Positions 18,415 to 45,670 of a stretch of DNA of 64,000 bases are shown here, piece by piece; position 1 is the stretch's first letter, and every line of letters begins with the position of its first letter. The DNA comes from Bacillus pumilus (lineage in GTDB: Bacteria; Bacillota; Bacilli; Bacillales; Bacillaceae). The stretch covers positions 372,001 through 436,000 of the forward strand of contig NZ_LT906438.1 in the NCBI RefSeq assembly GCF_900186955.1. The letters are read 5' to 3'. Position numbers and translations under genes: made by a program. The notes below the pieces were generated by a model. The model searched no databases, was not told the origin of the DNA, and saw only the letters and a program-made list of their open reading frames with translations.

Positions 18415-18424
18415 ACTTTAGATG

Positions 18425-18454
18425 AGGCAGGGGTGCACATTGGCAGCCCTGCCT
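18425..18454 (+). other. GC-rich hairpin between srfAC and the second synthetase
   Basis: A perfect 8-bp stem, AGGCAGGG (18425-18432) with CCCTGCCT (18447-18454), is extended by TGC/GCA after one mismatch. No T tract follows; the next bases are GACAAAAAAGG leading to the ribosome site. It therefore does not look like a normal intrinsic terminator. It could be an mRNA stability or processing element, or a partial attenuator, at the join of the two assembly lines. Confidence 0.6.
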
Positions 18455-18477
18455 GACAAAAAAGGGAAGGAACTCAT

Positions 18478-21400
18478 ATGAAACCATCAACCATTAATCA
18501 ATCGAATGTACATGAATCAATGGATACGATTTTACAAGATGTACAGAAAACCATTTTACAAACCAACGAAATCGAACGCTTCGCTGTTTTTTCTCGTGAA
18601 AAAACCATTCGACCACGGCCATATCACCTCTCTCATTTATTTCTAGACCAACACATGGAGCAGGAGGCCGCAGCTGAATGGATACAAACGCAAATGGCTT
18701 CACCTGCTTTAGCGGACATGCCCCCAGCCATTTCCTATGGAGGGGATATAGATGTTCGTGCAGGAGCTCAAACCTTGCAGGACGCTCTAACTGAGGCAGC
18801 CAAAACAACAAATGGGCTGACTTATATCATCAATAGTGAAAACGAGCTCACGCAATCCTACGCGCAGTTAAAGGAGGATGCCGAGCGGGTGTTGACGGGT
18901 TTAAGGGCACTAGGGCTTGAGCCAGGAGATCCTGTGTTCTTTCAATTTTCATCGAATCATGCGATGGTCACGGCTTTTTGGGCATGTGTGTTAGGCGGAT
19001 TTGTCCCAACACTTGTGTCGGCAGCCCCGACCTATCGGGAAATGAATGCCTCAGTGAAGAAGCTTCATCACGCTTGGGACCTGCTGGAGCACCCGCTCAT
19101 TCTCACGGATGACTCGCTGATTGATGAGGTGCAAGGCTTGGCTTTACTGTGGCATACAGATCAATTACGTGTGGCAGCCGTTGAACCAATGCTTACTTTA
19201 GATAGAGATCTAGAAGTACACCCAGTCACGCCCGATGATTCCGTCTTTTTTATCTTAACGTCTGGAAGTACGGGGATGCCCAAATGCGTAGAGCATTCTC
19301 ATAGAAGTGTGCTGGCGAATGTCAAAGGAACAGTGGCAGCCAATGGGTTTACACAAGAGGATGTCTCGTTAGACTGGATGCCATTAGATCATATTGGCGG
19401 CATTGTCATGTTCCATCTTGTCAATGTGTACACAGGCTGTGAGCAAATTCGAGCAAGAACAGATGACTTCATCGCTCAGCCGCTGCGCTGGCTTGACTGG
19501 ATGGACCGTTATCGTGCAACGAAGACATGGGCACCTAACTTCGCATTTGCGATGATCAATGATTATGAGAAAGAAATCTCTTCGGGATCGTGGGATCTTT
19601 CTGCTATGACTTGTATGATCAATGGGGCAGAAGCGGTCGTACCGAAGACGATTCACCGGTTTTTACACCTGCTCGCTCCGCACGGCTTAAAAGGAGACGT
19701 CATCAGACCAGCTTTCGGCATGTCAGAAATCTCATCAGCCGTTGTCTTCTCTTTTGCGATTGAGCGGGGAGATGAAAACAGCGGGGTACTGACCTTTGAG
19801 GAAACATCGCTGACAGAGCAGCTAAGACCAGCAGAGGCACGCGAAACTGGAACCGTCAGCTTTACAGAGCTCGGGAAACCGATTCCGGGTATCACGATTC
19901 GTATCGTCAACCATGAGCATGAGCTTCTTCCCGAAGATCATATTGGTAGCGTGCAAATCAAAGGGCCGACGACAATGAAGGGCTATTACAAGAATGACGA
20001 AGCGAATCAAGAGGTTTTTCAAACAGAAGGCTGGTTCCACACGGGTGATTTAGGTTTTCTGCATGAAGGAAGACTGACATTAACCGGTAGAGAAAAAGAC
20101 ATGATCATCATCAACGGGAAAAATTATCACAACTATGAAATTGAAGCCATGGCAGAGGAAGTACCCGGCGTAGAAACAAGCTTTGTGGCAGCTTGCTCCG
20201 TTCGGATGGAGGCATCTGCATCCGATGAACTGATTCTCTTTTTTACACCGAAGCTGTATGAGCCTGCTTATATCATGAGGGCTAGCCAGCACATTAAAAC
20301 CCATATTGCGACAAAAATGGGTCTTTATGCATCAAGGATTATTCCTGTCCAGAAGCATGCCTTTCCGAAAACAAGCTCTGGAAAAATAGAAAGGGCACAG
20401 CTCAAGACAAGGTGGCAGGAAGGGGAATTCGACGAAATCATCAAGGAACTGGACATCAGACTTGAAAATGAACACACCTTGCCTGATTGGAGTTATCAAA
20501 AGAAGTGGACACCCGCTCCGCTTCATGAAACGGAAAAGCAAACAGAAGGGGACATGGTGATCTTTGCAGATGAGTTAGGGCTGGCAGATCAATTGAAATT
20601 CCTCTCAAACCAAGAACAAACCTATATCACGGTTGAACCGGGTCAAGCATTCACACAACTCACACCCACTCACTTCATCATCCACCCGAATCGGCCGTCA
20701 GACTACGAACAACTCTTTGAGACGCTCCGTTCGTATGGCGTTTCGGTGAAACAAATCATTCACCTTTGGAACTACACAAACAAGAAAGACACATTACAGG
20801 CGGAAATAGCGAAGGAAGCACAGAAAGCTGGCAGCATGAGTGCATTGTATGTAACAAAAGCGATCGCCGCCTATGAGGAAGCTGTAGAGATGACCTTTGT
20901 CTCCGCTCATGCGATGAATTTGCCAGAAGACAAAGTACATCATGTGGAAAAAGCAACAACAGCGGGATTGATGACAGCTGTTCAGCATGAATGGCCGTTT
21001 ATCAAGGTGCGATGTCTTGATTTTTCTCTAACAGAATCGGTTGGTCATTCTCATGTATCGGCGATCATGACAGAGCTCATCCATGGCACAAGTCAGCATG
21101 TCGCTGCTTATCGTGAAGGTGTTCGTTATATTCCTCTTATAGCGCCGCTTCATCTGGAAAGGGAACAAAAGAGGAAAAAACCGCCATTTGAATCATCGGG
21201 GCTTTACGTGATGACAGGCGGGCTTGGCGGAATAGGACGGATGCTAAGTGAACATCTTCTAACATCCTATCACGCGCATCTTGTGCTGCTTGGAAGAAAG
21301 GCACGAGAGGCTTTAAGTGCGGAGCAGCAAGACGTATTGACCTCACTTGAGAAACAAGCGGAAAAACGCGGCGGCACTGTTCATTATGAAGAAGTGGACT

Positions 21401-24400
21401 TGACGGATGCAAAAGCCCTTGAAGCCCTTATCTCGAGACAAGAGGTGGCTCATGGAAAAAGGCTGCATGGTGTGATTCATTTCGCTGGCATCATTCAAGA
21501 AGAGCTGCTTGCGGACATGTCGTCTGCGTCCTTACATGCGATGTACGAAGCAAAGGTATATGGCACGATTGCGCTTCATGAAGCAGCTTCTAAACGGCAG
21601 AATGTCTTGTTTCTTTCTAGCTCATCAGCACGAACGTTAAAGGGCGGGATGACCGTAGGCGCTTATTGCGCTGCCAATGAGTTCGTTGAACAATTTGCTC
21701 ATTATCAGAGGCTGACATCTACCGTGAAGCCTTACTGCTTTAGCTTTAGCATGTGGGATGAGATCGGCATGAGCGAGGGTTCGATGATCAAAGGCATGTT
21801 AAAAGAAAGAGGCTATCTTCCGATTCCGAAGCGGGCGGGCTTGCAGACGATGCTGGCATGTTTGATGACAGATGCACCTCTCATTTATATGGGATTAGAT
21901 CGGTCGAAGCAGGACATTCAAGAGATGCTTCATGCGAAGAGCCGAACAGAGAAAGCCGTGTATGTCTTTTTCAAAACCGACAAAACAAAAGCCATTGAAG
22001 AACGGCTGTATCAGTCCATTTATACGTCTTTGCAGTCTCATATATCTGGTGAATATTCCGTCCATCTATTTCCTGAGGAATATTGGAAAGAATCAGAGGA
22101 TGGCATGCCGGATGAACCGTATTTTAAAGCACTCATTGAGGAAAGTGGACAGGAAGCCGAGGACAGAGCGCCTCAAACGGAGACGGAGAAACTTTTGGCA
22201 AGCATTTGGTCCGAGCTGCTTGATGTCTCAAATGTCAGCTGTGGTGATCATTTCTTTCTACTCGGGGGTCATTCGCTCAAGGCAACGCAAATGCTGTCTG
22301 CGGTGAGACAAAAAATGGGGTTTGATGTGCCTCTCGCTGTTCTTTTTGAGCATACGAGACTTGGGGAATTAGCGGCATGGATCGATTCGCATGCAAAAGT
22401 GGATGAAGCGGTACAGGTGCGGAAAATGGCAAAGGGTCAGAAGATTCCGATGTCCTATGCCCAGCAAAGACAGTGGTTTCTCTATCAATTACAGCCTGAT
22501 CTGCCATTTTACAATAATACAATTTCCTTTCGGGTGAATGGATCTTTAGATGTGAAGGTGCTTCAGCGCAGTCTTCAGCAAATGGTGCAAAGGCATGAGG
22601 CGCTTAGAACTTCCTTTACCATGAGCGGCGATGAACCGGTGCAGATCATCCATGAGCATATGACCCTTCCAGAGCTTGAAGTGGTGGATCTATCAGATCT
22701 GACGTCACAGGAAGAAAAAGGACAAAAAGCGGCTGAGTGGGCAAAAAGAGAGGCAAGCACAGCTTTCCGCTTAGAGCATGATCCGCTCTTTCGGGTAAAA
22801 CTGATTCGGTTGTCGGAAACAGATCATTTGCTGCTGATGTCCATTCACCACATTGTGTCAGATGGCTGGTCGGTTGGGATTGCCGCAAGAGAGCTGTCTG
22901 AATGGTATACAGCGATGATTGACAAGAGAGAGCCTGATCTTTCGCCGCTGCCAATACAATATGCGGATTACGCCCTATGGCAGAAGGAGTATTTGACTGG
23001 AGAGACGCTCCAAAAGCAGGTTTCCTATTGGAAGGAGCAATTTGCTGTCCCTGTAGAAGATTTGGTTTTGCCGTATGACTACCCGCGGCCAGCCGTTCAA
23101 TCCTACAAGGGAAAAACGAAAAAATACCACCTGTCGAAGTCGCTGTCTGAGCAGCTGGCAGCTCTTTCTAAAAAAACACACAGCACCCTTTATATGACGC
23201 TACTGACTGCCTTTTCTACCTTGCTGCACCGTTTGTCTTCACAGGATGAGTTTGTGATTGGATCAGTCATTGCTGGGAGAAATCGGACGGAGATGGAGCA
23301 GCTCATCGGATTTTTCGTCAATACGCTGGCACTTCGGATCGATCATAGCGGGAATCCTGCTTTCACTGACCTATTAGAACGGGTGAAAGAAACAACAATG
23401 GGCGCTTATGCGCATCAGGATGTGCCGTTTGAGATGGTCGTAGATGAGCTGAATATTGTACGTGAGGCTGGCAAACAGCCGCTGTTTCAGGTCATGTTCG
23501 TTTTGCAAAATCTGCCGCTAGAAGCTTCTCCGATGGGGGAGGCGACATCTGTTTTAGCCATTGAAGATAACGATACCGCCAAATTCGATCTATCCCTGTT
23601 TGTTTTTGAAGGAGCGGAGGGTCTTCAATTAAAACTGGAGTATGATGTGGACTTATTTTCTGACGATACGATGGACCGGTTCCTTCGGTACTACGAGCAG
23701 CTGCTTGAGCGTATTTGTGAAAATCCAGCACAGCCGATTAGACTAATGAATTACCTGCCAGAAAAAGAGAAGCATCAGCTGCTCTATGAATGGAGCGGCA
23801 AAACAGATCAGCCTGCAGGCCCGCTTCTCATCACGGAACGGTTTGAAGCGCAGGTGAGAAAGTCACCCGATGCCATCGCTCTCGAATTCGGGGAAGAGCA
23901 GTGGACGTATCGTGTGTTACAAGAGAAAGTCGACCGGCTTGCGGCTTCTCTGCAGCAGCGAGGTGTGACGCCGCATGAACCAGTAGGGCTGCTCATCGAC
24001 AGGTCGCCTGAAATGATTCTTGGGGTGCTGGCGATTGTGAAAGCAGGAGGCGCCTATGTGCCAATTGATCCTGAATATCCAGATGCCCGCATTGATTATA
24101 TGCTGAGGGATACAGGTATTCAGCTGTTACTGACAAAAAATAAATGGCTGAAAAAGGTGTCCATCAGTCAAACCGAACTCATTTGTCTTGATGAAGGATA
24201 TGAAGAATTTTTATCAGAAGCAGAACTCATACCTGCTGCCTTAAAACCTGATGGACTCGCTTATATCAATTACACCTCAGGATCAACTGGACAGCCAAAA
24301 GGGGTATTGATCCCGCATCAAGCAGTCATCCGGCTTGTCTGTGAAACAGATTATGTCACCCTTGATGAACATACACGTATTTTACAAATTGCCAGCTTCT

Positions 24401-27400
24401 CCTTTGATGCCTTTACGTATGAAATATGGGGAGCCCTGCTAAACGGGGGAAGACTGATCCTGACCGATCGAAATACGATTTTATCAATGGATACACTGGC
24501 TGATACACTGACATCATACAAGATCACAACAGGATTTTTGACGGTGCCGCTGTTCAACCGATTGACAGAGGAACATCCAGAAGCTTTATCTGGATTCGAT
24601 GCATTATTGGTCGGTGGTGATGCGCTCTCAGCTGCTCATATTCGCAAGGCACTACCGTATTTACCGGAAGGGCTTTTAAACGGCTATGGACCAACTGAGA
24701 ATACGACGTTCTCCTGTGTGCATCACATTCGTTCATTAGACGAAGGGCAGACGACCGTTCCTATCGGTCAGCCAATTGCTTATTCACAAGCCTATGTATT
24801 AGACGACCAGCTGCAGCCGGTTCCGCAGGGTGTCATTGGAGAAATCTACGTTGGCGGAACAGGGCTGGCACTCGGCTACCTTGGAGATGAAGAAAAAACA
24901 TCGCAATCATTTATCCCGCATCCTTTCCATAAAGGAGAGCGTTTATATAAAACAGGTGATATGGGCCGCTGGCTCCCAAATGGCATCATCGACTGCCTTG
25001 GAAGAATGGATCATCAAGTGAAAATACGCGGACATCGCGTCGAATGCGGAGAAATTGAAGCCGCTATGCTGAGTGTTGAAGACATCGTAGAATGTGCGGT
25101 TATTCCGCATCAGCACGAGAGTGGTCATAAGCGCCTGATCGGTTACTTTGTCCAAAAAGGTGCATGGACTCAGCAAGACCTTCGACGCAAGTTAAAAGAT
25201 AGACTGCCAGATTATATGGTACCGAGCCTATTCATAGAGCTCGAGGAACTGCCGCTCACGCCAAACGGCAAGGTAGATCAAAAGCATCTCCCGCCGCCAG
25301 TGTGGAGACAGGAAGAAGCAGACAAACCAGCAGATCAGGCACTCAGTGAGGGAGAACGGGTGCTGGAAAAGGTGTGGACTCAGCTTCTTGGCACTCCTTC
25401 AATCGGTGTTCATGATAACTACTTTGAGCTTGGCGGAGATTCTATTATTGTCATACAAATGGTGGCACGCCTAGCACAGGAAGGCTACATCATACAGCCG
25501 AGAGATGTATTTGAAAAACAGACCATTTCACAGCTGGCACGCGCTATGAAAAAAGCAGATGTATCTGTGTCCTATGATCAATCACCTGTTACAGGAAATG
25601 TTCGTCTGCTTCCAATCCAATCTTGGTTCCTTGAACAATCGATGACAAACCAAGATTATTGGAATCTATCAGCGCATATTGAATTCAAGCAATCGATACA
25701 ACCCGAGCAGTTAACACAAGTTCTTTCAAAGCTTGTCGATCATCACGATATGCTGAGAGCCATTTATACAAAAGCAACAGACGGTACATGGATTCAAACC
25801 GTTCGCGCGCCTGGCATCATTCCTTGTGTCACTTTCGTTGATTTGACGGATATTTCTCACGAGGAAGCGCTAGAGCAAATTCGCTTGGAGACAAGCGCTT
25901 GTCAAGGAACATTGTCATTAGAGCGGGGAGAAGTGATCAAAGCCATTCTTTTTCAGACAAGTGATTGTACGTCTGAACTCTTTATCGCAGCCCACCATCT
26001 TGTGATGGATGGAATATCGTGGCGCATCATACAGGAAGATGTATTAAATGGGTTGAAGCAGGCTGCGGCAGGGCAGGAGATCACGCTTGCAAAGAAAACC
26101 GCTTCCTATCAGCAGTGGGCAGAGGCACTCTATGAATATGCACAAACCGATCAATTACAAGAGCAGGTTCCTTTTTGGGAAAAGATCATGAATCAAGAGG
26201 AAGAAGGTTCGCCTTTTCAACCACCTGCGCTTTTCAATATAGAAGAACATGCAGAGATCCTGACTATTCAATTGACGAAGGATCAAACAGACATTTTACT
26301 AAGGCACGCATCACAAGCGTACCGAACAGAGGTCAACGATTTACTCCTGTCAGCACTTGCGCAAGCTGTTGGAAAGCCACTACTGATTACGTTAGAAGGG
26401 CATGGACGCGAGGATTTATTTGAACAGATGGATTTGTCACGGACAGTCGGCTGGTTTACAAGCTCTTATCCTATTTTTATTCCTTTTATTCAAACCGATG
26501 TTGAGAGACAAATTAAAGATGTCAAAGAAACCTTAAGAGCTGTGCCGCAAAAGGGGATCGGCTATGGCTTACTTCAATACATGACAGCATCTCGTTTACT
26601 TAAAACGGCAGCGCCGCAGGTGAGCTTTAATTACCTTGGACAGTTAGATCAAATAGATGGTGAGGCAAATCTGTATATAGCAGATGAACGAAATGGACAT
26701 GTACATGACCCAAAAGCAGAAAGACAGCATTTGATCGATGTGTACGGATACGTTGTCAGTGGTCAGCTTCAGATGAATTTTATGATCAATCGTGAACTGC
26801 TTCAGGAGGAAGAGGTGCGTCAGTTACCTGAACGATTTAAAGAAAAAATGGAGGGCATTTTGACGCATTGTGTAGAGGCAAAAGGCGGCTTTACGCCATC
26901 TGATTTTCCAATGGTCCAGCTGACGCAAAAGCAAATAGATGAGCTTCCAGACAATGTGGTAGATGTGTATCCATTATCTCCGATGCAGCAAGGGATGCTG
27001 TTTCATGCACTGTTAGATCAAGCATCACAGGCGTATTTTGGTCAGGTGCATATGACACTCGAAGGCTTAACGGACGGTGAAGCCTATGAAAAAGCATGGA
27101 ATCTGCTTGTGGAACGTCATTCGATTTTACGGACAAGATTTGCTTGGGAGGGGCTAAAGGAGCCTGTCCAATTGATTCAATCAGAAGGAAGCATTCACCT
27201 CACTCAGCACGATGTGCGCCACCTGAGTGAAATGGATCAGAAGAAAACTATTGAGCGTTATTTACAATCCGATCGTTCAAAGGATTTTGATTTGGAAAAT
27301 TCGGCTGAACCGCTCATTCGTATCGCTTTGTTCCATCGTGACGAGAAAACTTGCACGTTTGTTTTTAGCTTTCATCATATTTTAATTGATGGCTGGAGCC

Positions 27401-28608
27401 TGTTCGGCTTGATTGAGGAATCCTTTTCAATGTATCGCTCGCTTGTGGATGAACGAGAGATGAACCTTCCTGCTGTGCGTCCATATAAAGATTTTATTGA
27501 GTGGTTGCAAAAGCAGGATCAAGAGAAGGCACAAGAGTTCTGGAAACATTATATGTCAGGAGTAGAGGAAGCCACACCACTTCCAGGAAACGGAGAGCAA
27601 GCTTCGGATGAAGGAGCAGGTATTGATCAAATTAGTATCAAACTGACGCCTGAAATGCAGCAGAAGCTGGAGAAAATGACAGGGACACAGAAGGTCACGA
27701 TGAGCACACTGATTCAGGCGGCATGGGGTCTGCTCTTGCACCTTCATTCAGGCTCAGAGGATGTCGTGTTCGGTGTCACAGTATCTGGCCGGCCGGCGGA
27801 CTTACCAGAGGTTGAAAGCATGACAGGGCTCTTTATTAACACCTTGCCGCTTCGTTTGCCGATCACACCAGACAGGACCATTGCCGAGCTGCTGGCACAG
27901 ACGCAGGGAACGGTTTTTCACATGCGAGAATTCGAGTATACCGTACTCCCAGATATTCAGCAGATGACCCAAATTCCGAATGGAGAATCATTGTTTAACA
28001 GCATTGTCGTGTTTGAAAACTACCCGATTGAATCTGTAGAGCCGTATGGTGTACGGATCTTAGACATAGCTAGTCATGAAGAAACCAACTATGACCTGAC
28101 CCTTGTGGCTGTCCCGGGAGATACGCTGGAGCTTCGGGTCACATACCGCTTCAATCAATATAAAGAAAAACAAATACAATCGCTGATGCAGCAGCTGGTC
28201 CATACACTTGAAGCCATGACAGAACAAGTGGAGACACCACTCTCTTCCTTCACGATCGTGATAAATAAAGAAAAAGAGCGGATGATCACCGATTGGGCGA
28301 AAAACGCACAAGTCAGCGTGCTGTACCCAGATCAAGAAGAGGTCTATTCAGTTATTCATGATCCTTCGTGTGAGACGGAAATCTATGTTCTGAGCGAAGA
28401 GCATCAGCTCATGCCGGTAGGATTTCCTGGAGATATTTTTATCGGTGCAAAGGATATCAAGGCACTTTGCGGAGAGCTTGCCGATTGGATGGAGACGCAT
28501 AAAATTCCGCATCCATTCAAACATCAAACAGGCGAATACCTCTATCCGACAGGGGATGTCGGCGTTTGGACTGAAAAAAACAAGATTCAGATTTTGGATT
28601 GGGTGTAG
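18478..28608 (+). CDS. Depsipeptide-type synthetase 1: psiAsub-AL-KR-T-C-A(Val-like)-T-E-C-(A remnant)
   Basis: A 3376-residue megasynthetase. Residues 15-55 look like a split half adenylation sub-domain ending in PYHL..LF. An AMP-ligase follows (about 85-650) with SGSTGMPK at 262, MPLDHIGG at 301, TGD at 522-524 and catalytic Lys636 in KTSSGKIERAQL. A ketoreductase follows (about 660-1130) with TGGLGGIG at 913 and Ser1050/Tyr1063/Asn1067. Next come the second half sub-domain (about 1140-1220), carrier Ser1266, C (HH 1457-1458, D1462), A (Asp1977, code DAFFLGGTFK, Val-like), carrier Ser2322, E (HHLVMDG, H2506/H2507) and a final C (H2966/H2967, D2971). The tail 3270-3376 is an A domain lacking most of its core. 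Order and length resemble CesA/Vlm1; the ligase-KR unit resembles PksJ. Inferred role: load a 2-keto acid, reduce it, and join it to a D-Val-like residue. A fatty or hydroxy acid starter is an alternative. The start is an ATG after GGGAAGG. Confidence 0.85.
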   Translation: MKPSTINQSNVHESMDTILQDVQKTILQTNEIERFAVFSREKTIRPRPYHLSHLFLDQHMEQEAAAEWIQTQMASPALADMPPAISYGGDIDVRAGAQTLQDALTEAAKTTNGLTYIINSENELTQSYAQLKEDAERVLTGLRALGLEPGDPVFFQFSSNHAMVTAFWACVLGGFVPTLVSAAPTYREMNASVKKLHHAWDLLEHPLILTDDSLIDEVQGLALLWHTDQLRVAAVEPMLTLDRDLEVHPVTPDDSVFFILTSGSTGMPKCVEHSHRSVLANVKGTVAANGFTQEDVSLDWMPLDHIGGIVMFHLVNVYTGCEQIRARTDDFIAQPLRWLDWMDRYRATKTWAPNFAFAMINDYEKEISSGSWDLSAMTCMINGAEAVVPKTIHRFLHLLAPHGLKGDVIRPAFGMSEISSAVVFSFAIERGDENSGVLTFEETSLTEQLRPAEARETGTVSFTELGKPIPGITIRIVNHEHELLPEDHIGSVQIKGPTTMKGYYKNDEANQEVFQTEGWFHTGDLGFLHEGRLTLTGREKDMIIINGKNYHNYEIEAMAEEVPGVETSFVAACSVRMEASASDELILFFTPKLYEPAYIMRASQHIKTHIATKMGLYASRIIPVQKHAFPKTSSGKIERAQLKTRWQEGEFDEIIKELDIRLENEHTLPDWSYQKKWTPAPLHETEKQTEGDMVIFADELGLADQLKFLSNQEQTYITVEPGQAFTQLTPTHFIIHPNRPSDYEQLFETLRSYGVSVKQIIHLWNYTNKKDTLQAEIAKEAQKAGSMSALYVTKAIAAYEEAVEMTFVSAHAMNLPEDKVHHVEKATTAGLMTAVQHEWPFIKVRCLDFSLTESVGHSHVSAIMTELIHGTSQHVAAYREGVRYIPLIAPLHLEREQKRKKPPFESSGLYVMTGGLGGIGRMLSEHLLTSYHAHLVLLGRKAREALSAEQQDVLTSLEKQAEKRGGTVHYEEVDLTDAKALEALISRQEVAHGKRLHGVIHFAGIIQEELLADMSSASLHAMYEAKVYGTIALHEAASKRQNVLFLSSSSARTLKGGMTVGAYCAANEFVEQFAHYQRLTSTVKPYCFSFSMWDEIGMSEGSMIKGMLKERGYLPIPKRAGLQTMLACLMTDAPLIYMGLDRSKQDIQEMLHAKSRTEKAVYVFFKTDKTKAIEERLYQSIYTSLQSHISGEYSVHLFPEEYWKESEDGMPDEPYFKALIEESGQEAEDRAPQTETEKLLASIWSELLDVSNVSCGDHFFLLGGHSLKATQMLSAVRQKMGFDVPLAVLFEHTRLGELAAWIDSHAKVDEAVQVRKMAKGQKIPMSYAQQRQWFLYQLQPDLPFYNNTISFRVNGSLDVKVLQRSLQQMVQRHEALRTSFTMSGDEPVQIIHEHMTLPELEVVDLSDLTSQEEKGQKAAEWAKREASTAFRLEHDPLFRVKLIRLSETDHLLLMSIHHIVSDGWSVGIAARELSEWYTAMIDKREPDLSPLPIQYADYALWQKEYLTGETLQKQVSYWKEQFAVPVEDLVLPYDYPRPAVQSYKGKTKKYHLSKSLSEQLAALSKKTHSTLYMTLLTAFSTLLHRLSSQDEFVIGSVIAGRNRTEMEQLIGFFVNTLALRIDHSGNPAFTDLLERVKETTMGAYAHQDVPFEMVVDELNIVREAGKQPLFQVMFVLQNLPLEASPMGEATSVLAIEDNDTAKFDLSLFVFEGAEGLQLKLEYDVDLFSDDTMDRFLRYYEQLLERICENPAQPIRLMNYLPEKEKHQLLYEWSGKTDQPAGPLLITERFEAQVRKSPDAIALEFGEEQWTYRVLQEKVDRLAASLQQRGVTPHEPVGLLIDRSPEMILGVLAIVKAGGAYVPIDPEYPDARIDYMLRDTGIQLLLTKNKWLKKVSISQTELICLDEGYEEFLSEAELIPAALKPDGLAYINYTSGSTGQPKGVLIPHQAVIRLVCETDYVTLDEHTRILQIASFSFDAFTYEIWGALLNGGRLILTDRNTILSMDTLADTLTSYKITTGFLTVPLFNRLTEEHPEALSGFDALLVGGDALSAAHIRKALPYLPEGLLNGYGPTENTTFSCVHHIRSLDEGQTTVPIGQPIAYSQAYVLDDQLQPVPQGVIGEIYVGGTGLALGYLGDEEKTSQSFIPHPFHKGERLYKTGDMGRWLPNGIIDCLGRMDHQVKIRGHRVECGEIEAAMLSVEDIVECAVIPHQHESGHKRLIGYFVQKGAWTQQDLRRKLKDRLPDYMVPSLFIELEELPLTPNGKVDQKHLPPPVWRQEEADKPADQALSEGERVLEKVWTQLLGTPSIGVHDNYFELGGDSIIVIQMVARLAQEGYIIQPRDVFEKQTISQLARAMKKADVSVSYDQSPVTGNVRLLPIQSWFLEQSMTNQDYWNLSAHIEFKQSIQPEQLTQVLSKLVDHHDMLRAIYTKATDGTWIQTVRAPGIIPCVTFVDLTDISHEEALEQIRLETSACQGTLSLERGEVIKAILFQTSDCTSELFIAAHHLVMDGISWRIIQEDVLNGLKQAAAGQEITLAKKTASYQQWAEALYEYAQTDQLQEQVPFWEKIMNQEEEGSPFQPPALFNIEEHAEILTIQLTKDQTDILLRHASQAYRTEVNDLLLSALAQAVGKPLLITLEGHGREDLFEQMDLSRTVGWFTSSYPIFIPFIQTDVERQIKDVKETLRAVPQKGIGYGLLQYMTASRLLKTAAPQVSFNYLGQLDQIDGEANLYIADERNGHVHDPKAERQHLIDVYGYVVSGQLQMNFMINRELLQEEEVRQLPERFKEKMEGILTHCVEAKGGFTPSDFPMVQLTQKQIDELPDNVVDVYPLSPMQQGMLFHALLDQASQAYFGQVHMTLEGLTDGEAYEKAWNLLVERHSILRTRFAWEGLKEPVQLIQSEGSIHLTQHDVRHLSEMDQKKTIERYLQSDRSKDFDLENSAEPLIRIALFHRDEKTCTFVFSFHHILIDGWSLFGLIEESFSMYRSLVDEREMNLPAVRPYKDFIEWLQKQDQEKAQEFWKHYMSGVEEATPLPGNGEQASDEGAGIDQISIKLTPEMQQKLEKMTGTQKVTMSTLIQAAWGLLLHLHSGSEDVVFGVTVSGRPADLPEVESMTGLFINTLPLRLPITPDRTIAELLAQTQGTVFHMREFEYTVLPDIQQMTQIPNGESLFNSIVVFENYPIESVEPYGVRILDIASHEETNYDLTLVAVPGDTLELRVTYRFNQYKEKQIQSLMQQLVHTLEAMTEQVETPLSSFTIVINKEKERMITDWAKNAQVSVLYPDQEEVYSVIHDPSCETEIYVLSEEHQLMPVGFPGDIFIGAKDIKALCGELADWMETHKIPHPFKHQTGEYLYPTGDVGVWTEKNKIQILDWV

Positions 28609-28935
28609 GAGGAGAAGAACGATGTTAATGAGTAGAAGAAAAGGACATGCAGCAAATCATATCGTCAGAATCAACGGAAAACGAATCGATCTCAAAGCAT
28701 TAGAACAGGTCGTGATGCTTCATTTTCCGTTAAAGGAATGTGCATTCATCCCGAAGAAAAATGAAGAAGGCAGCCTCTCGCTTGTGCTATTTGCACAGGC
28801 GAAGGACCCTTCGCTAACAAGAGAGGATCTGATGACAGGCGCGCTTCACCCTGATGAAGTGCCAGCCGCTCTCGTCTTATTGCCTTCCTTGCCAAGGACA
28901 GAAAGTGGAGCGGTCGATACAGAAGCACTGCTTTC
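28285..28935 (+). other. Vestigial adenylation domain split across two proteins
   Basis: After the last C domain of synthetase 1 comes an A-domain entry linker, then a jump to the late core region (MPVGFPGDIFIG, YPTGDVG) and a stop at 28606-28608. The matching sub-domain (VRINGKRIDL to PRTESGAVDTEAL) opens synthetase 2 in a different frame. A ribosome site and start codon lie between the halves, so the break falls close to the core/sub hinge. Motifs A1-A6 are missing and the A10 Lys is Ala, so it cannot adenylate. The remnant may serve as a contact between the two proteins. Confidence 0.75.
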
Positions 28936-31900
28936 GATTGACATCATTGATGAAGAGAGTTTGAGAAAGATAGAAGATCGTACGAAAGCTATAGATGGAG
29001 TAGAGGAAGCGGCTGCTCTCATTGAAAGTCAGACAGAAAAACAAACGCCTTATCACTTAGATGATCTGTTTCCTAATCGGCAGCGTGCGCAAGGGAACGA
29101 ATCGATCTCGAAGGATGAAGAGGGCGAAACAAAGCAAGCATCCGCTCATGAAAAGCCGCCTGCACTTGTGTATGGCGGGGATGTCATCAAAAAACCAGGC
29201 ACACCTGTCACACTGACAGAGGTGTTGATTCGATCAGCCTTTATGTCACCTGACCGCGGGGTGACCTATATCAAAGAAGGCGGGCGCACGTTGACCCAAT
29301 CCTATCCTGAGTTACTCACAAACGCAGAACGGGTTCTGTCTGGTTTAAGGAAAGCAGGCCTGACAAACGGCGATCAAGTGTTACTACAATTGAAAGATCA
29401 TCAAGATTTCATCACTGCGTTTTGGGGCTGTATTCTCGGTGGTATCATTCCGACTCCGGTTTCTGTACCGCCTGTTTATGATGAAACGAATCAAGCTGTG
29501 AACAAGCTGAAAGGCGTGTTTCGGCTGCAAAATGAACCGTTTATTATGACGAATGAAGCAAGTGCTGAGGACATTGCTGGGCTGCGTGAGTCATTTGAGG
29601 CAAAAGACATACCTATTTTAACAATCGAAACATTGCTCTCGTGTGAACCTGATGAACAGCATTATGAGCCAGAGCCAGATGAGCCTGTGCTTCAGCTGCT
29701 CTCTTCAGGAAGTACGGGTGTGCCAAAGTGTATCCGTCACAACCATCAAAGTATTTTATCTCGAATCATCTCCTTTGAGCAGACAAATGGCTTTACGCAT
29801 GAGGATATGTCGCTTAACTGGATGCCGCTTGATCATGTAGGAGGCATTGTCATGTTTCATGTGCATGACGTCTACTTTGGCTGCCAGCAGATTAGTCCAT
29901 CCATCGATCAATTTATCGAGCGGCCGATGGTATGGCTGGATTGGGTAGAAACATACGGCGTCACAAGGACATGGGCACCGAATTTTGCTTTTGCGATGAT
30001 GAATGAATATGAGGACGACATTCGCAAGGGGAGCTGGGATCTCTCCACACTGACTTATATCATGAATGCAGCCGAAGCGGTTGTGCCAAAAGTAACGCAG
30101 CGCTTCATGCATATGATGGGTCAGCACGGATTAAGCCGTCATGCGATGGTGCCGGCGTACGGCATGTCTGAAACATCCTCAGCCATTGTTCAATCAAAGA
30201 AATTCATGCGGCATGGTGATCAGGATGGACAGCTGACGATTGATCAGACTTCGTTAACAGGTGACATTCAATGCGTGGCGCAAGATCATCCGCACAAAAT
30301 GACGTTTACCGAAGTCGGTGCACCGATTCCGTCTGTATGGATTCGGATTGTAGACGAGCATCATCATGTGCTGCCAGAAGATCAGGTCGGGCGCTTGCAG
30401 GTGAAGAGTCCGACGATTATGATGGGCTATGATCAAAATGAGGAAGCCAATCAAGAGGTATTTGTGGAAAATGGCTGGTTTCACACGGGGGATTTAGGAT
30501 TTATCCACGAAGGGCGTCTTGTTCTAACAGGCCGGGAAAAGGATATCATCGTCATCAACGGAGCCAACTATTTGAATTACGAAATTGAAGCAGTTGTGGA
30601 AGAGGTGGACGGGGTGGAAGTCACCTTTGCCGCTGCGTACGGCATCTACAATCCCGAATCAAGCAACGACACGCTTGCCGTCTTCTTTGTGACACAAAAG
30701 GATTCGCTAGAGGAACAAATCACGATGATTCAGCAGATTAGAGAGGCCATCATTCGTAAAATTGGCATAGAGCCCGATCACATCATTCCAGTGAAAAAAG
30801 ACCAATTTCCGAAAACAGAAAGTGGAAAGATCCAACGTGCTCAGTTAGGCGCGGCGCTAAAAGAAGGGATATTCCGTGACATTGAAAGGGCACTGGACCT
30901 TGCTTCTGAAAATGAACAAACACTGCCAGATTGGTTTTTCAAACGCACTTGGGCAAAGGAGCATATTGTTCCGTCTCAGCCTGCTGCTGATCATGTACTC
31001 GTTTTCGAGGATGAAAAAGGGCTTTACCAATCACTTTACGCCCATTTTGAAAAAAGAAATCAGCCCTATGTTTCTGTGAAAAAAGGACATGAATTTTTGC
31101 GTCTGTCCAAAGGGATGTACCAGATGAACCCGAGAATCAAGGGGGATTATGTCAGGCTCGCTGCAGCACTTGAAGCAGATGAATTAAAGACAGGGTGCAT
31201 ACTCCATTTGTGGAATGTGACAGACAAAGAAGCCATTGTTGAGCCTGCGCAGTTCACAGAAATGCATGCGAGGTCCAATCAATCGATTTTGTACTTGTAT
31301 CAAGCATGGAGGCAAGAAAACAAAGAGCCAGTCCGGCTTGTTGTAGTGACAAAGGGTGGTCAATATGTAAGCCCTGAAGACGATCTCCATGTGGAGAAAA
31401 CGTCGCTCGTTGGTTTATTAAAAACCATCCCGCAAGAATGGGAAGGAGCAGAGGTGTCCCATATTGATATTGAAGCGGAGCAAGTGGAACAGGATGCAAA
31501 GCACATTGCTAATGAGCTGTCGGCGATTCATATAAAAGCAGAGGTGGCATACCGAAAAGGGCGCAGGCTCGTACCAAAGCTGGAAAAAATCGATATGATG
31601 AAAGCACCTCAAACAGAAGGGTTTTTAGAATATGAAGGTCTTTATTTGCTGACCGGAGGACTCGGCGGTATTGGGTTTGAACTATCTAAGCAGATGCTCC
31701 AATTTGGCCTAAAGCTTGTATTGATTGGAAGGACTTCTTTGGAAGACAGCTTGGAAAAGAAAGAAGCGTTCTTACAGCTAAAAAGTCTCGGTGACGTTAT
31801 CTATGTACAAGCGGATGTGACCGATTTAGCTGACGTGGAGCGGGCGATTTACAAAGCAGAAAAACATTTTGGTCAAACCATCCGGGGTGTGCTGCATTTA

Positions 31901-34900
31901 GCCGGTGCTGGCAATGTATCAGAGCATTTTCAGCATACAGATAAGTATACATTGGCGCATACGTCAGAAGAGGATTTTACAAAGGAACTGTCAGGGAAAG
32001 CAGACGGAGCGTTTGTCCTGCAGGAAGCCTTCAAGCATGATCCGGCAGTACCACTCGTCTTTTTTGGATCAGTAAATGGCTTTTTTGGCGGTACAACATT
32101 CGGGGCTTACTCTGCGGCCAACAGCTTTTTAGATGGGCTTGCGCACACGCTCACCTTTCAAGAAGGAAGACGGGCGATCTCTTTAAACTTTAGTATGTGG
32201 GATAATCTCGGTTTGTCTAAGGGGCATACCGGCGCAGCCCTTACCGTCCGCAAGGGATTTCAATTGATTGGAAAGAAGCAAGGTCTCCATTCATTATGTC
32301 TAGGTGCTCGGCTGAATGAAGCGCATCTATTTATCGGACTAGATGGAGCCAATCCAGAAATCGCAGCGTATCTTCAGCCAGCGCCAATACCGACTTTTGA
32401 GAAAAAGCTTTTTTACACAGTTCAGCCTGGCAAAGAAGTGCATGTGGAAGATATCGCAGGCGGAACAAAAGGTGACTGGGATATTCAGCAAGTACAGGAA
32501 ATACCGAAAAAACTAGATGGCTCTATTGATCATGAAGCCCTTAAGCTGAATCATCACAAAAATGGACAACCCCTTGAAAAACAATTGCCAGAAACGAAAA
32601 CAGAGCAAATGCTTGCTGCCATATGGGAGGACATTTTAGACGTTGATCGTGTGTACAAAGAGGATCAATTCTTTGACCTTGGCGGACATTCATTAAAGGC
32701 GACTCAAACCATTTCTCGGATCAATCATGAGTTTTCAATCAAGGCGCCTTTAAAAATATTATTTGAAAGCAAGCATCTGGCACATTTGGCGCAAACGGTT
32801 GATGACATCAAAGAGGCACCGGCTGTTCAGGAAGCCAATATTCCAAAGCTGGAAAAGCGAACAAGCTATGAGCTGTCACATGCTCAGAAGCGTATTTGGT
32901 TCTTATCCACATTAGAAAAGAGCCATCATTACAATATATTAGGTGCTTGGAAGCTGACAGGACAATTGCACATTCAAGCGTTAACAAAAGCGATTGGTCT
33001 CTTAACGAAACGTCATGAAGCACTACGCGCAACTTTTCAATCGCTTGGCGGCAAGCCGGTTCAACTGATACGTGAAGACCTTCCGCCATCCGTCACTGTT
33101 GCGAACTTCTCATTATTTAATGAAAAAACAAGAACGAGAAGACTCGAGCAGCTTATTCAGCAAGAAGCGAACCGCATTTATGATTTAGAAAGAGGGCCTC
33201 TTGCGCAGTGGACGATTGTGGATATGGGCAATGAAGAATTTTATCTTCTTTGCGCGCAGCACCATATCATTTCAGATGCATGGTCGCTCAGTCTGCTCAT
33301 TCAGGAATTAGAAGTGGCATATGACGGACTGCTTGCAGATGAAGCACCGCAGCTCCCAGCGCTAGAAATTGAATGGACAGATTATGTCCATTGGGAAAAT
33401 GAGCAAGTAACGCATCATCAAGCAGACCAAGCCTATTGGCTCGATCATTTACAAGGTGATCTTCCGGTGTTAGAGCTGCCGTTTGACCGTCCTCGCCCGC
33501 CAGTTCAAACATTTAACGGCGCTACAGAGCAAATCGTCTTGGAAGATACGCTTATCCGCCGTTTGCAGGCTTTGTCCAAGCAGCAGGGCACAACGCTGTT
33601 CATGACGATGCTGTCAGCGTACTACGTCCTGCTTCACAAGCTGTCAGGACAGACAGATATCATCATTGGTTCGCCGATCGCAGGGCGAGGTGCCAAGCAA
33701 TCAGAGAAGCTTGTTGGAATGTTTGTGAATACACTCGCGCTGAGACAGGATATCTCCACAGCAGATACGTTTGCTGATGTCATGGAAAACGTGAAGGAGA
33801 TGACATTAAAAGCCTTCGAGCATCAGCGTTATCCATTTGATAAGCTTGTCGATGATCTTTCATTAGATAGAGATTTAAGTCGATCGCCTATTTTCCAAGT
33901 GGCCATGGGTTATGTAACAGATTCGCTCCATGTCAATCTCAAAGGGCTGACAAGTGAACATGTGATGGTTCATCATACAGTGTCTAAATTTGATCTCACC
34001 TTACATGTATTTGAACAGGGGGATCAGCTGTCGATCCATGTGGAATACAATACAGATTTATTTGATCAAGAGACCATTCATCGTTATATGAATTATTATC
34101 TTCATCTGCTAGATGGTATGACAGCTCAGCCTGAACGTACATTTTCTGATTATTGCTTAATGGACAAAGCGGAACAGGCTGCGATGATCATAGGGAAAAA
34201 CCAAACGGCTACGCCATATCCAAAGCGCACCATTCAAGAGCTGTTTGAAGAACAGGTGCAGCGTGATCCGCACCGCATTGCCTTGTCTTATTTGGAAGAG
34301 CACATGACGTATCAAGAGTTGGATGAGAAGGCAACACAGCTTGCTGCTTACTTGCAATCAAAAGGAGTTGGACCAGGTTCACTTGTACCGATGCTTTTTG
34401 ATCGTTCCTTTGACATGATTGTCTCAGTGCTAGGCATTGTCAAATCTGGTGCTGCATATGTTCCAATGTCACCAGAATATCCAGATGCGCGAATCCGCCT
34501 CATTGTTCGCGATACGCAAAGTGATGTGATCATCACTCAATCTCATTTAATAGAGCGTCTAGTAGACTTTACAGGTACAAAGATTGAGATGGACAAGCCA
34601 TTACCAGTAACAGATGCAGTGTATCAAAGAGAACAATCAATCATTGGAGAAGACCAGTTAGCCTATGTCAACTACACATCAGGCTCAACAGGTACACCAA
34701 AAGGCGTCATGCTCCCCCATGCAGGAGTTGTCCGTCTGGTTCGAAAAACAAACTATATAAAACTAGGTCCAGATGATAAGATGCTTCAGCTCTCAAACTA
34801 TGCTTTTGATGCCTTTACATTTGAGTTGTGGGGCATGCTGCTGAATGGCGGTCAGCTCATTCTGATTCCGAAATATGCCGCACTGAATATGGATGAATTA

Positions 34901-36817
34901 TCACGGCTGATCAAAGTGCATCAAGTGACAGCCAACTGTCTGCCAACCGCTTTATTCAATCGGCTGGTGGAGCACGATCCAAAAAGTGTAGCAGGCTACC
35001 GCACATTACTCGTTGGCGGAGAAGCGATGTCCAGTGAGCATGCACGAAAGGCACTGCCACATATGGAGGGTGTACTCATCAATGCTTACGGCCCAACAGA
35101 AAACACGACCTTAGCCACAACACATCAAGTCATGCACATGCCAGAGGGAGCAAGGTCAGTTCCGATTGGTGTCCCAATATCGAATTCAACTGTTGTCATA
35201 CTAGATGATGCGCTCAACCCAGTGCCAGCAGGCGTCAAAGGAGAAATTTATATCGGCGGCACAGGTCTGGCAAAAGGCTACCTTCATGATCCAGAGCGGA
35301 CGCATGAACGGTTTATAGACAATCCATTCCCTGAACTAGGGGGAGACAGGCTGTATCGTTCAGGTGATCTAGGTACATGGCGTTCAGATGGCACCATTGA
35401 ATATCTCGGCCGAAAAGACAATCTCGTGAAAATTAGAGGCTACCGGATTGAATGTGGAGAAATAGAGACAGCTCTCCTCAAGCATCCACAAATAAAAGAA
35501 TGTACAGTCATCGCCAAAACGTATGGCAGCTCAAAACGGCTGGCGGCCTACCTTGTTACAGACGGAGAGAATCCTGTTTCAGGCTGGAAAGCATTTTTAC
35601 AGGAAAGCCTGCCAGGCTACATGATTCCAAGTTACTTTATTGTAATGGACGAAATGCCAGTCACAACAAACGGAAAGGTTGATCAAAAAGCACTGCCAGA
35701 CCCAGCAGAAACGATCTCTCTTTCTCAAGGGGATGACAAACCAGTCACCGAAGCGCAGCAGTTGATTGTCACAGCTTTCAAGGACGTGCTTGGTGTCAAA
35801 CAAGTAGGCATACATGACTCATTTTTTGATTTAGGCGGCGATTCAATTATGAGTATCCAAGCCGTTGCCAAATTAAAAGAACAGGGGATTCATGTGGATC
35901 CAAAATGGATTTTCATGCATCCAGCGGCGGCTCAGCTAGCCGCACATGTGGACGCAATGCCAGAGGCCGGGGAGCACGTAGAAAGGTCTCCAAAGGACTA
36001 CGTGATTGAGCTGAAAAAAGGCGCTCCAGCCGAGCCGAGGATTTTCTTTGCACCGCCTGCCGGTGGAACGGTAATGGGCTATATCGATGTGGCTAAGCTG
36101 ATGACACATCAAGGCGCTGTGTACGCCTTGCAGTCTCCTGGCTTATATGAGGATGAAGAACCGCAATTCCTCCATTACACAGAGCTTGTGTCCATATTTG
36201 TTGAAGCCATTGAGACCTTCTATCGACCTGGTGTTGACTATCTAGCAGGGCATTCAATGGGCGGGCACCTTGCCTACGGAATGAATCAGCGGCTCTGCCA
36301 TGCAGGAAAAGCGCCGAAAGGACTCATCATTTTAGATACCGTCCCTGTGTTAAGAGATGAGGCAGATCAGGCGCTCCATGCGGATATGAACGAAGAAGAA
36401 GTGAAAATGCTTGCGCTTGTCCTTGGAATGGGGAATCTCGTCGGCATTCAGCCAGAAGCATTACAAGGGCTGAGCTTCCAAGAAGTGAAGCAAAAAATAC
36501 TCAAAGAGGCAGAAAAGGATGAAGTGGTTCATCAATTTATGAATGATCAGTATTTAGATAAATATTTGCAAATGCAAACGCACAATACAATCATGTCACA
36601 AGCCATTGAATTAGAAAAAGAACCATTCGGTGTGCCGTTTTATATTGTACAAAGCAGTGATCACGCCATTGATTTCCAGAAGAAGTTCTCAGACTGGGAG
36701 GCTTATACGAAAGGACCGTGCTCGTATTATCACATCAAAGGAGACCATGTCACCATGATGAAAAGGCCGCAGGCGGATGAACTGGCACGAATTCTTCAAA
36801 CGATGATAAAGGGGTAA
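28622..36817 (+). CDS. Depsipeptide-type synthetase 2: (Asub remnant)-AL-KR-T-C-A-T-TE
   Basis: A 2731-residue megasynthetase. The ATG at 28622 was chosen because AGGAGGAGA lies just upstream; the open frame extends 177 nt further but only into unrelated sequence. Residues 10-105 are a degenerate adenylation sub-domain whose A10 Lys is Ala97. Residues 110-152 repeat the half sub-domain with PYHL..LF seen at the start of the previous protein. An AMP-ligase (170-750, Lys736) precedes a ketoreductase with TGGLGGIG at 1011 and Ser1150/Tyr1163/Asn1167. A second half sub-domain (about 1255-1310), carrier Ser1357 and C (H1547/H1548, with DA instead of DG at 1552-1553) follow. A has Asp2063 and code DAFCLGATLK (aliphatic, uncertain). 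The end is carrier Ser2408 and a thioesterase with GHSMGG (Ser2545, His2709). The protein probably receives a dipeptidyl intermediate from the previous protein, adds a second hydroxy acid and amino acid, and releases or oligomerises the product. Size and order resemble CesB/Vlm2. Confidence 0.85.
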   Translation: MLMSRRKGHAANHIVRINGKRIDLKALEQVVMLHFPLKECAFIPKKNEEGSLSLVLFAQAKDPSLTREDLMTGALHPDEVPAALVLLPSLPRTESGAVDTEALLSIDIIDEESLRKIEDRTKAIDGVEEAAALIESQTEKQTPYHLDDLFPNRQRAQGNESISKDEEGETKQASAHEKPPALVYGGDVIKKPGTPVTLTEVLIRSAFMSPDRGVTYIKEGGRTLTQSYPELLTNAERVLSGLRKAGLTNGDQVLLQLKDHQDFITAFWGCILGGIIPTPVSVPPVYDETNQAVNKLKGVFRLQNEPFIMTNEASAEDIAGLRESFEAKDIPILTIETLLSCEPDEQHYEPEPDEPVLQLLSSGSTGVPKCIRHNHQSILSRIISFEQTNGFTHEDMSLNWMPLDHVGGIVMFHVHDVYFGCQQISPSIDQFIERPMVWLDWVETYGVTRTWAPNFAFAMMNEYEDDIRKGSWDLSTLTYIMNAAEAVVPKVTQRFMHMMGQHGLSRHAMVPAYGMSETSSAIVQSKKFMRHGDQDGQLTIDQTSLTGDIQCVAQDHPHKMTFTEVGAPIPSVWIRIVDEHHHVLPEDQVGRLQVKSPTIMMGYDQNEEANQEVFVENGWFHTGDLGFIHEGRLVLTGREKDIIVINGANYLNYEIEAVVEEVDGVEVTFAAAYGIYNPESSNDTLAVFFVTQKDSLEEQITMIQQIREAIIRKIGIEPDHIIPVKKDQFPKTESGKIQRAQLGAALKEGIFRDIERALDLASENEQTLPDWFFKRTWAKEHIVPSQPAADHVLVFEDEKGLYQSLYAHFEKRNQPYVSVKKGHEFLRLSKGMYQMNPRIKGDYVRLAAALEADELKTGCILHLWNVTDKEAIVEPAQFTEMHARSNQSILYLYQAWRQENKEPVRLVVVTKGGQYVSPEDDLHVEKTSLVGLLKTIPQEWEGAEVSHIDIEAEQVEQDAKHIANELSAIHIKAEVAYRKGRRLVPKLEKIDMMKAPQTEGFLEYEGLYLLTGGLGGIGFELSKQMLQFGLKLVLIGRTSLEDSLEKKEAFLQLKSLGDVIYVQADVTDLADVERAIYKAEKHFGQTIRGVLHLAGAGNVSEHFQHTDKYTLAHTSEEDFTKELSGKADGAFVLQEAFKHDPAVPLVFFGSVNGFFGGTTFGAYSAANSFLDGLAHTLTFQEGRRAISLNFSMWDNLGLSKGHTGAALTVRKGFQLIGKKQGLHSLCLGARLNEAHLFIGLDGANPEIAAYLQPAPIPTFEKKLFYTVQPGKEVHVEDIAGGTKGDWDIQQVQEIPKKLDGSIDHEALKLNHHKNGQPLEKQLPETKTEQMLAAIWEDILDVDRVYKEDQFFDLGGHSLKATQTISRINHEFSIKAPLKILFESKHLAHLAQTVDDIKEAPAVQEANIPKLEKRTSYELSHAQKRIWFLSTLEKSHHYNILGAWKLTGQLHIQALTKAIGLLTKRHEALRATFQSLGGKPVQLIREDLPPSVTVANFSLFNEKTRTRRLEQLIQQEANRIYDLERGPLAQWTIVDMGNEEFYLLCAQHHIISDAWSLSLLIQELEVAYDGLLADEAPQLPALEIEWTDYVHWENEQVTHHQADQAYWLDHLQGDLPVLELPFDRPRPPVQTFNGATEQIVLEDTLIRRLQALSKQQGTTLFMTMLSAYYVLLHKLSGQTDIIIGSPIAGRGAKQSEKLVGMFVNTLALRQDISTADTFADVMENVKEMTLKAFEHQRYPFDKLVDDLSLDRDLSRSPIFQVAMGYVTDSLHVNLKGLTSEHVMVHHTVSKFDLTLHVFEQGDQLSIHVEYNTDLFDQETIHRYMNYYLHLLDGMTAQPERTFSDYCLMDKAEQAAMIIGKNQTATPYPKRTIQELFEEQVQRDPHRIALSYLEEHMTYQELDEKATQLAAYLQSKGVGPGSLVPMLFDRSFDMIVSVLGIVKSGAAYVPMSPEYPDARIRLIVRDTQSDVIITQSHLIERLVDFTGTKIEMDKPLPVTDAVYQREQSIIGEDQLAYVNYTSGSTGTPKGVMLPHAGVVRLVRKTNYIKLGPDDKMLQLSNYAFDAFTFELWGMLLNGGQLILIPKYAALNMDELSRLIKVHQVTANCLPTALFNRLVEHDPKSVAGYRTLLVGGEAMSSEHARKALPHMEGVLINAYGPTENTTLATTHQVMHMPEGARSVPIGVPISNSTVVILDDALNPVPAGVKGEIYIGGTGLAKGYLHDPERTHERFIDNPFPELGGDRLYRSGDLGTWRSDGTIEYLGRKDNLVKIRGYRIECGEIETALLKHPQIKECTVIAKTYGSSKRLAAYLVTDGENPVSGWKAFLQESLPGYMIPSYFIVMDEMPVTTNGKVDQKALPDPAETISLSQGDDKPVTEAQQLIVTAFKDVLGVKQVGIHDSFFDLGGDSIMSIQAVAKLKEQGIHVDPKWIFMHPAAAQLAAHVDAMPEAGEHVERSPKDYVIELKKGAPAEPRIFFAPPAGGTVMGYIDVAKLMTHQGAVYALQSPGLYEDEEPQFLHYTELVSIFVEAIETFYRPGVDYLAGHSMGGHLAYGMNQRLCHAGKAPKGLIILDTVPVLRDEADQALHADMNEEEVKMLALVLGMGNLVGIQPEALQGLSFQEVKQKILKEAEKDEVVHQFMNDQYLDKYLQMQTHNTIMSQAIELEKEPFGVPFYIVQSSDHAIDFQKKFSDWEAYTKGPCSYYHIKGDHVTMMKRPQADELARILQTMIKG

Positions 36818-41976: not shown

Positions 41977-42046
41977 TTACCAAAGTGTGGGAGGTGAACT
42001 GGTACATACCATTATGATTAAAGCAGGGAAAAGGGGATGTCAAAAA

Positions 42047-45664: not shown

Positions 45665-45670
45665 TCGTCC

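Follow-up and report, generated by a model that had tools for sequence, protein, structure and literature searches.

A cereulide/valinomycin-type synthetase pair within the surfactin operon of the Bacillus pumilus group

Two giant genes, stsA and stsB, lie between srfAC and srfAD in a window of Bacillus pumilus DNA (the whole stretch analysed, 64,000 nucleotides in length, taken from a single-contig genome of 3.86 Mb). The original prediction assigned to the pair the domain logic of the cereulide and valinomycin synthetases and called it unassigned. The follow-up analysis reads Sts, with a probability of roughly 0.75, as a two-protein synthetase of this type that makes a four-unit depsipeptide, three copies of which are likely joined before the ring is closed. 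In every carrier examined, a synthetase under selection occupies an identical position within the surfactin operon, and its measured product was not found in the literature covered. Probiotic and biocontrol strains occur in this bacterial group, which makes the Sts product relevant to both safety and chemistry.

Operon setting, domain order and distribution

Both genes have been confirmed as open frames, and the two giant genes foreseen between srfAC and srfAD are thus present with their frames and domain stretches (Table 1). StsA comprises 3376 residues. For stsB, the preferred start is the ATG at 28622, which is preceded by GAGGAG and gives a protein of 2731 residues, the most frequent length among close StsB relatives; a GTG at 28445 was set aside, as it merely opens the longest frame in the ORF list. 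The gaps between srfAC and stsA, stsA and stsB, and stsB and srfAD measure 63, 13 and 6 bp, respectively. Shared operon control with the lipopeptide, as had been proposed, is suggested by this gene layout, and co-expression with surfactin would follow from it. A ComA-box-like site ahead of srfAA was not meaningful, the locus holding 4 matches against a mean of 7.08 in shuffles, and an ABC exporter pair like CesC/D was found neither among the ten genes tested downstream nor among the seven tested upstream. The SrfAC adenylation (A) domain carries the code DGFFLGVVF, which we take to be isoleucine-like; the residue names given to seven surfactin codes, and the codes for Leu/Ile used as orientation, are likewise assumed here. 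Elsewhere in the window, positions 41987-46231 encode a protein of 1225 residues in which DUF11 domains recur, and a sortase gene comes next; the two are likely a surface protein pair. Upstream of srfAA (L124:10615-18506, genome positions 356614-364505), hydantoinase A and B genes accompany an uptake-type ABC transporter with a binding protein.

Table 1. Features of the sts locus, in window positions
Feature	Position	Strand	Basis or remark
srfAC-type gene	14581..18414	+	C-A-T-TE, carries its own thioesterase domain
Hairpin between srfAC and stsA	18425..18454	+	8-pair stem, no T-run after it
stsA	18478..28608	+	
Keto-acid A domain, module 1 (residues 83-651)	18724..20430	+	PDB 6ULX match; I306 and M415 as in StsA
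KR domain, module 1 (residues 908-1080)	21199..21717	+	Pfam PF08659
First C domain of StsA	22438..23784	+	Pfam, tree; not after-E type
Amino-acid A domain, module 2	23842..25272	+	code DAYFLGGTF (valine-like)
E domain, module 2 (residues 2367-2806)	25576..26895	+	tree
Last C domain of StsA (residues 2825-3261)	26950..28260	+	tree; after-E type
StsA tail, last part of large lobe of a relic A domain	28336..28605	+	stops just before GRxD hinge
stsB	28622..36817	+	
StsB head, small lobe (A-sub) of the same relic	28655..28936	+	no A10 lysine
Keto-acid A domain of StsB	29159..30871	+	code VGVWMAASA
KR domain of StsB	31637..32203	+	Pfam PF08659
C domain of StsB	32858..34186	+	Pfam, tree; not after-E type, motif HHIISDA
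Amino-acid A domain of StsB	34244..35677	+	code DAFCLGATL
Thioesterase domain of StsB	36038..36802	+	nearest PDB chain: TE of Vlm2 (valinomycin synthetase)
srfAD-type type II thioesterase gene	36824..37564	+	
Phosphopantetheinyl transferase gene, Sfp type	39979..40671	-	

The gap between srfAC and stsA contains a hairpin in all 16 genomes that carry the pair. Its stem has eight pairs (7/8 in genome G022), its arms are separated by 10-16 bases and are followed by A residues, and its folding energy lies 2.0 to 5.0 standard deviations below that of 200 shuffles. In two genomes, inspection by eye showed one inner pair as A-U instead of the usual G-C. A terminator was rejected given the absence of a T-run, and a scan of positions 17900-19000 returned neither a terminator nor a new promoter on the + strand; Rfam gave no family at threshold within 18000-38600. 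One guess would be a processing or stability element.

On StsA, Pfam detected three condensation-type stretches, two each for AMP-binding and carrier domains, and one for KR; on StsB it again detected two each for AMP-binding and carrier domains, together with single KR, condensation and thioesterase stretches. The condensation-type stretches were told apart in a tree of ten such domains from the window, in which the second of StsA clusters with both E domains of the surfactin line (support 1.00), the last of StsA with the two C domains located after an E domain (0.99), and the remaining two Sts C domains pair with each other (0.85). The resulting orders, A-KR-T-C-A-T-E-C for StsA and A-KR-T-C-A-T-TE for StsB, bear out both the cereulide/valinomycin-type logic and the single epimerised residue of the original prediction. 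The domain order of the earlier layout stands, and its "AL" is to be read as a keto-acid-selecting A domain, not as a fatty acyl ligase. Ten motif positions in the KR, T, C, E and TE domains are invariant in every copy. In the C domain of StsB, HHIISDA occupies the place of the usual form HHxxxDG.

As for distribution, StsA module 1 was detected at full length and 80-100% identity in 16 of 44 genus genomes, and the StsB module at E ≤ 1e-150 in the same 16 out of 80 family genomes, which contain the 44. The order srfAC - stsA - stsB - srfAD is kept throughout (16/16 carriers), with the srfAC match ending 63-69 bases ahead of stsA when the stop codon is counted, so that the predicted place inside the surfactin operon proves to be fixed across the clade. 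In 24 of the 28 non-carriers, the srfAC and srfAD matches lie 31-66 bases apart, and the other four gave no SrfAC match at E ≤ 1e-250. The SrfAC of the window is only 52-55% identical to that of 24 genomes that have no sts genes; in carrier G019, the SrfAC match is split into two pieces in different frames, which reflects either a broken gene or a sequencing error. The nearest named relatives of StsB come from B. pumilus, at 98-99% identity across query residues 120-1400. A scan of named genomes, which detects close relatives only, returned nine loci with a full-length module whose best segment matches at 81-90%. One each came from B. australimaris, Bacillus sp. 28A-2, B. altitudinis, B. zhangzhouensis and B. 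xiamenensis, and two each from B. safensis and from genomes filed as B. pumilus; the 69 further loci listed were partial matches, mostly at 23-30%.

Both genes are under purifying selection: when the window was compared with seven of the other 15 carriers, dN/dS ranged over 0.10-0.14 for stsA and 0.08-0.15 for stsB. In G020, the stsB frame is broken within the keto-acid A domain, so that the match falls into two pieces, and the interval between the starts of stsA and srfAD falls one base short of that in the window; the break may be either a real lesion or a sequencing error. The remaining carriers are intact. Recent arrival on a plasmid was rejected: no near stsA match appeared among 72,556 plasmid records, every carrier has the pair at the same location, and the G+C content (46.6 and 46.0% in stsA and stsB) equals that of srfAB and srfAC (46.0 and 45.5%). 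At the protein level, plasmid matches stayed below 60% identity among the best 12 of 1182 records for StsB and the best 12 of 36 for StsA module 1. The insertion of this cereulide/valinomycin-type synthetase within the surfactin operon is real, old and shared across the clade.

A split relic at the StsA/StsB junction

The least expected feature of Sts is found where the two proteins meet, since the end of StsA and the beginning of StsB match the two sides of one A domain. The closing parts of seven A domains in the window, Sts contributing two, served to build a profile. The StsA tail matches positions 20-107 of this profile at 43 bits (34 when the whole protein is scored), and StsB residues 12-103 match positions 111-204 at 28 bits (21 on the same whole-protein basis), against a maximum of 6.8 bits in 800 shuffled controls; two other Sts pieces scored below zero. 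Profile positions 108-111 hold GRxD, described in a review as the hinge between the A-domain lobes. StsA therefore ends immediately ahead of the hinge, where StsB begins. Text matches in three papers did not describe a relic of this kind.

Comparable pieces occur in other proteins. Among 167 database proteins, 22 end in such a tail, always at profile positions 106-107 and 3-4 residues from the last residue, and 78 begin with an A-sub-like head, which starts at positions 110-112 in the 43 nearest to StsB (P0001-P0043) and at 113-129 in the 35 others. The survey of relics covered 177 keto-acid A domains from these proteins and the window. A relic including some of the large lobe precedes 36 of them: in three (P0104, P0163 and P0164) it is unbroken and lies 6-31 residues past the C domain, as the joined Sts halves would, in 18 it lies 305-376 residues past the C domain, leaving space for most of a whole A domain, and in 15 no C domain was found ahead of it. 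An A-sub-like piece only was seen before 89 of the 177, and no relic was found before 52. Read as a series, these arrangements suggest that a keto-acid unit was inserted next to an ordinary A domain, that the core of the latter then shrank, and that the gene of Sts-type lines was split at the hinge of the relic. The space before the keto-acid A domain, present in P0050, P0072 and 16 other proteins, may show the origin of the module.

Whether the two pieces still serve a purpose is a separate matter. The A10 lysine is absent from 15/15 StsB heads (the broken stsB of G020 having been left out of these counts), and the relic is therefore unlikely to work as an A domain. It is proposed that tail and head may dock the StsA and StsB subunits. 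There is an even chance, however, that they are a mere leftover of module evolution with no part in docking; this fits the missing lysine, the retention of the A-sub part only in other proteins, and the poor AlphaFold models of both junction pieces (mean pLDDT 47.2 and 37.1). Against a leftover, both pieces are under purifying selection, the median dN/dS being 0.135 for the tail and 0.157 for the head (10 genome pairs, covering 10 of 15 partners; one linker pair that gave no dS was dropped). The tail is also as conserved as the C domain that precedes it, at mean identities of 89.0 and 87.3%, and the stretch past the StsB head is less so, at 72.9%. Such constraint does not by itself prove docking. 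Should the split relic dock the subunits, it would be an unusual means of keeping two giant enzymes in register, one that makes clear sequence predictions.

Substrates and predicted product

In a 2024 review (PMC11253843), PDB 6ULW is StsA of Bacillus stratosphericus LAMA 585, which selects α-ketoisocaproate and whose product is entered in the review's table as cereulide. Module 1 of the window matches 6ULW at 2614 bits across 1319 residues, and its residues 291-479, including I306 and M415, are identical when compared by eye. As judged by sequence, module 1 is an orthologue of this enzyme, with its predicted ketoisocaproate pocket. The description of the cluster as unassigned consequently holds in one respect, in that no measured product was found in the literature covered; the enzyme, on the other hand, is already known in part, having been published as StsA (PDB 6ULW, 6ULX and 6ULY) with a substrate given for module 1 and an entry under cereulide. 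A best match below about 60% identity had been suggested as a sign of novelty, and module 1 lies far above that value to a structurally characterised enzyme.

The nine code positions of each A domain were read in 16 genomes. The keto-acid A domain of StsA reads IGVWIGASA in 16/16 and that of StsB VGVWMAASA in 15/15 whole copies, with five of the nine positions visible in G020, all identical. The amino-acid A domains read DAYFLGGTF in 15/16 (one position is changed in G013) and DAFCLGATL in 16/16. Both keto-acid domains, distinguished by I306 and M415 in StsA and by V and GMSE in StsB, have a residue other than Asp at the amino-contact position and an A5 motif without proline, and the review gives these as marks of keto-acid A domains (PMC11253843). 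The StsB keto-acid pocket differs from that of StsA at 3/9 positions, and the change from Gly to Ala among them suggests that it may prefer a keto acid with a smaller side chain. The module 2 code shares six of nine positions with the valine code DAFWIGGTF (PMC11355689) and five with the SrfAA code DAWFLGNVV of the window, which makes valine the nearest of the codes compared. In the literature covered, a search for DAYFLG and DAFCLG yielded no published code to match modules 2 and 4. Lastly, the StsB thioesterase scores 188 bits against that of Vlm2 and 64 bits against the next distinct protein in the PDB, which, by similarity, agrees with the foreseen oligomerising kind of thioesterase.

From these features, a scheme of assembly can be drawn. 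Module 1 would load α-ketoisocaproate, whose reduction on the same module would give 2-hydroxyisocaproate (Hic). The aliphatic amino acid next added by module 2, probably valine, would be converted to the D form by the E domain, and the last C domain of StsA would form an ester to a second hydroxy acid. The latter would be made by the A-KR-T module of StsB from a keto acid that may be smaller (ketoisovalerate or pyruvate). Module 4 would then add another aliphatic amino acid, and the thioesterase would store, join and cyclise the units, its oligomerising action and the ring size being argued by analogy. SrfAD and the phosphopantetheinyl transferase could be shared by the Sts and surfactin lines. 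The product is likely a cyclic trimer of 2-hydroxyisocaproate, a D-aliphatic amino acid, a second and perhaps smaller hydroxy acid and an aliphatic amino acid, possibly with ionophore activity, and is likely neither cereulide nor valinomycin exactly. A trimer of Hic-Val-Hiv-Val has a computed mass of 1236.772. Trimers of Hic-Val-Lac-Val and Hic-Val-Lac-Abu have the formulas of cereulide and valinomycin, respectively, so mass alone cannot separate the candidates.

Cereulide itself, 3x (D-O-Leu - D-Ala - L-O-Val - L-Val), would have an equal module 1 substrate, a published CesA/CesB domain order that is alike (PMC1459170) and the review's entry for StsA in its favour (PMC11253843). It is nonetheless an improbable product, about one chance in ten being allowed it here, because the second module of CesA takes alanine (PMC1459170) and the corresponding code in Sts is valine-like.

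As for valinomycin, one review records its production by 12/14 B. pumilus isolates (PMC8068249), and the B. pumilus group is likewise named in PMC5454208. At E ≤ 1e-150, a search with the A-KR-T module of StsB matched nothing in the 16 carriers beyond the modules of StsA and StsB themselves. What was reported from B. pumilus as valinomycin may be the product of Sts. That the cluster makes valinomycin itself is a slightly poorer prospect than cereulide, even with the thioesterase nearest to Vlm2 and the valine-like code of module 2: valinomycin needs ketoisovalerate in module 1 (PMC8068249), and the pocket here has exactly the residues of StsA, which selects ketoisocaproate. The link to the isolates is further weakened by 3/18 B. 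amyloliquefaciens and 1/19 B. subtilis isolates also reported as producers (PMC8068249), and a more distant synthetase could fall below the threshold. A hybrid lipodepsipeptide made jointly with the surfactin line, for which the common operon and the position of the sts genes directly 3' of srfAC could be cited, is highly improbable, as SrfAC ends with its own thioesterase and StsA opens with A-KR-T and no C domain to accept a chain, so that the two lines look separate.

Returning to the predicted trimer, a wider proposal joins it to the junction: StsA and StsB, like other pairs of their type, would dock by reassembling the split relic, which would mark where the A-KR unit entered next to an ordinary A domain, and the product would be a new ring of three Hic - D-Val - small hydroxy acid - aliphatic amino acid units that is the "valinomycin" of B. 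pumilus. As a whole, this is speculative, and its failure would be less surprising than its success. Two matters have become testable, namely the true nature of B. pumilus "valinomycin" and the product of StsA, an enzyme whose structure is solved.

Comparison with known systems

The closest system is that of B. stratosphericus LAMA 585, where the structure of StsA has been solved for the first module alone; no StsB module of this line was found in the PDB. Beyond the listed proteins of B. pumilus type, the nearest relative of StsB is P0043 from Paenibacillus sp. LC-T2, with 46% identity over the whole length. It has the same relic head and, by eye, the same keto-acid code, and its amino-acid A code is unlike that of StsB, also by eye.

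In the Ces system of Bacillus cereus, CesA is published with the A-KR-T-C-A-T-E-C order of StsA, and the second protein with A-KR-T and a terminal thioesterase after an intergenic gap of 13 bp, the same as in Sts (PMC1459170). A database protein of 3391 residues (P0142), the published length of CesA, is 38% identical over module 1 and ends in the same relic tail. The settings differ, since ces is described on a plasmid with its own phosphopantetheinyl transferase, type II thioesterase and ABC transporter genes (PMC1459170), whereas sts lies in the chromosomal surfactin operon. With regard to cesP, cesT and cesC/cesD, Sts has type II thioesterase and phosphopantetheinyl transferase genes nearby and no ABC exporter pair among the ten downstream and seven upstream genes tested. 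Module 2 of Ces takes alanine, and the code of Sts module 2 is not read as such, valine being the nearest of the codes compared. The Vlm1/Vlm2 pair of Streptomyces shares the four-module logic (PMC8068249) and provides the nearest solved thioesterase. Its modules 1 and 3 take ketoisovalerate and pyruvate (PMC8068249), whereas module 1 of Sts has, by its sequence, a pocket predicted to take ketoisocaproate.
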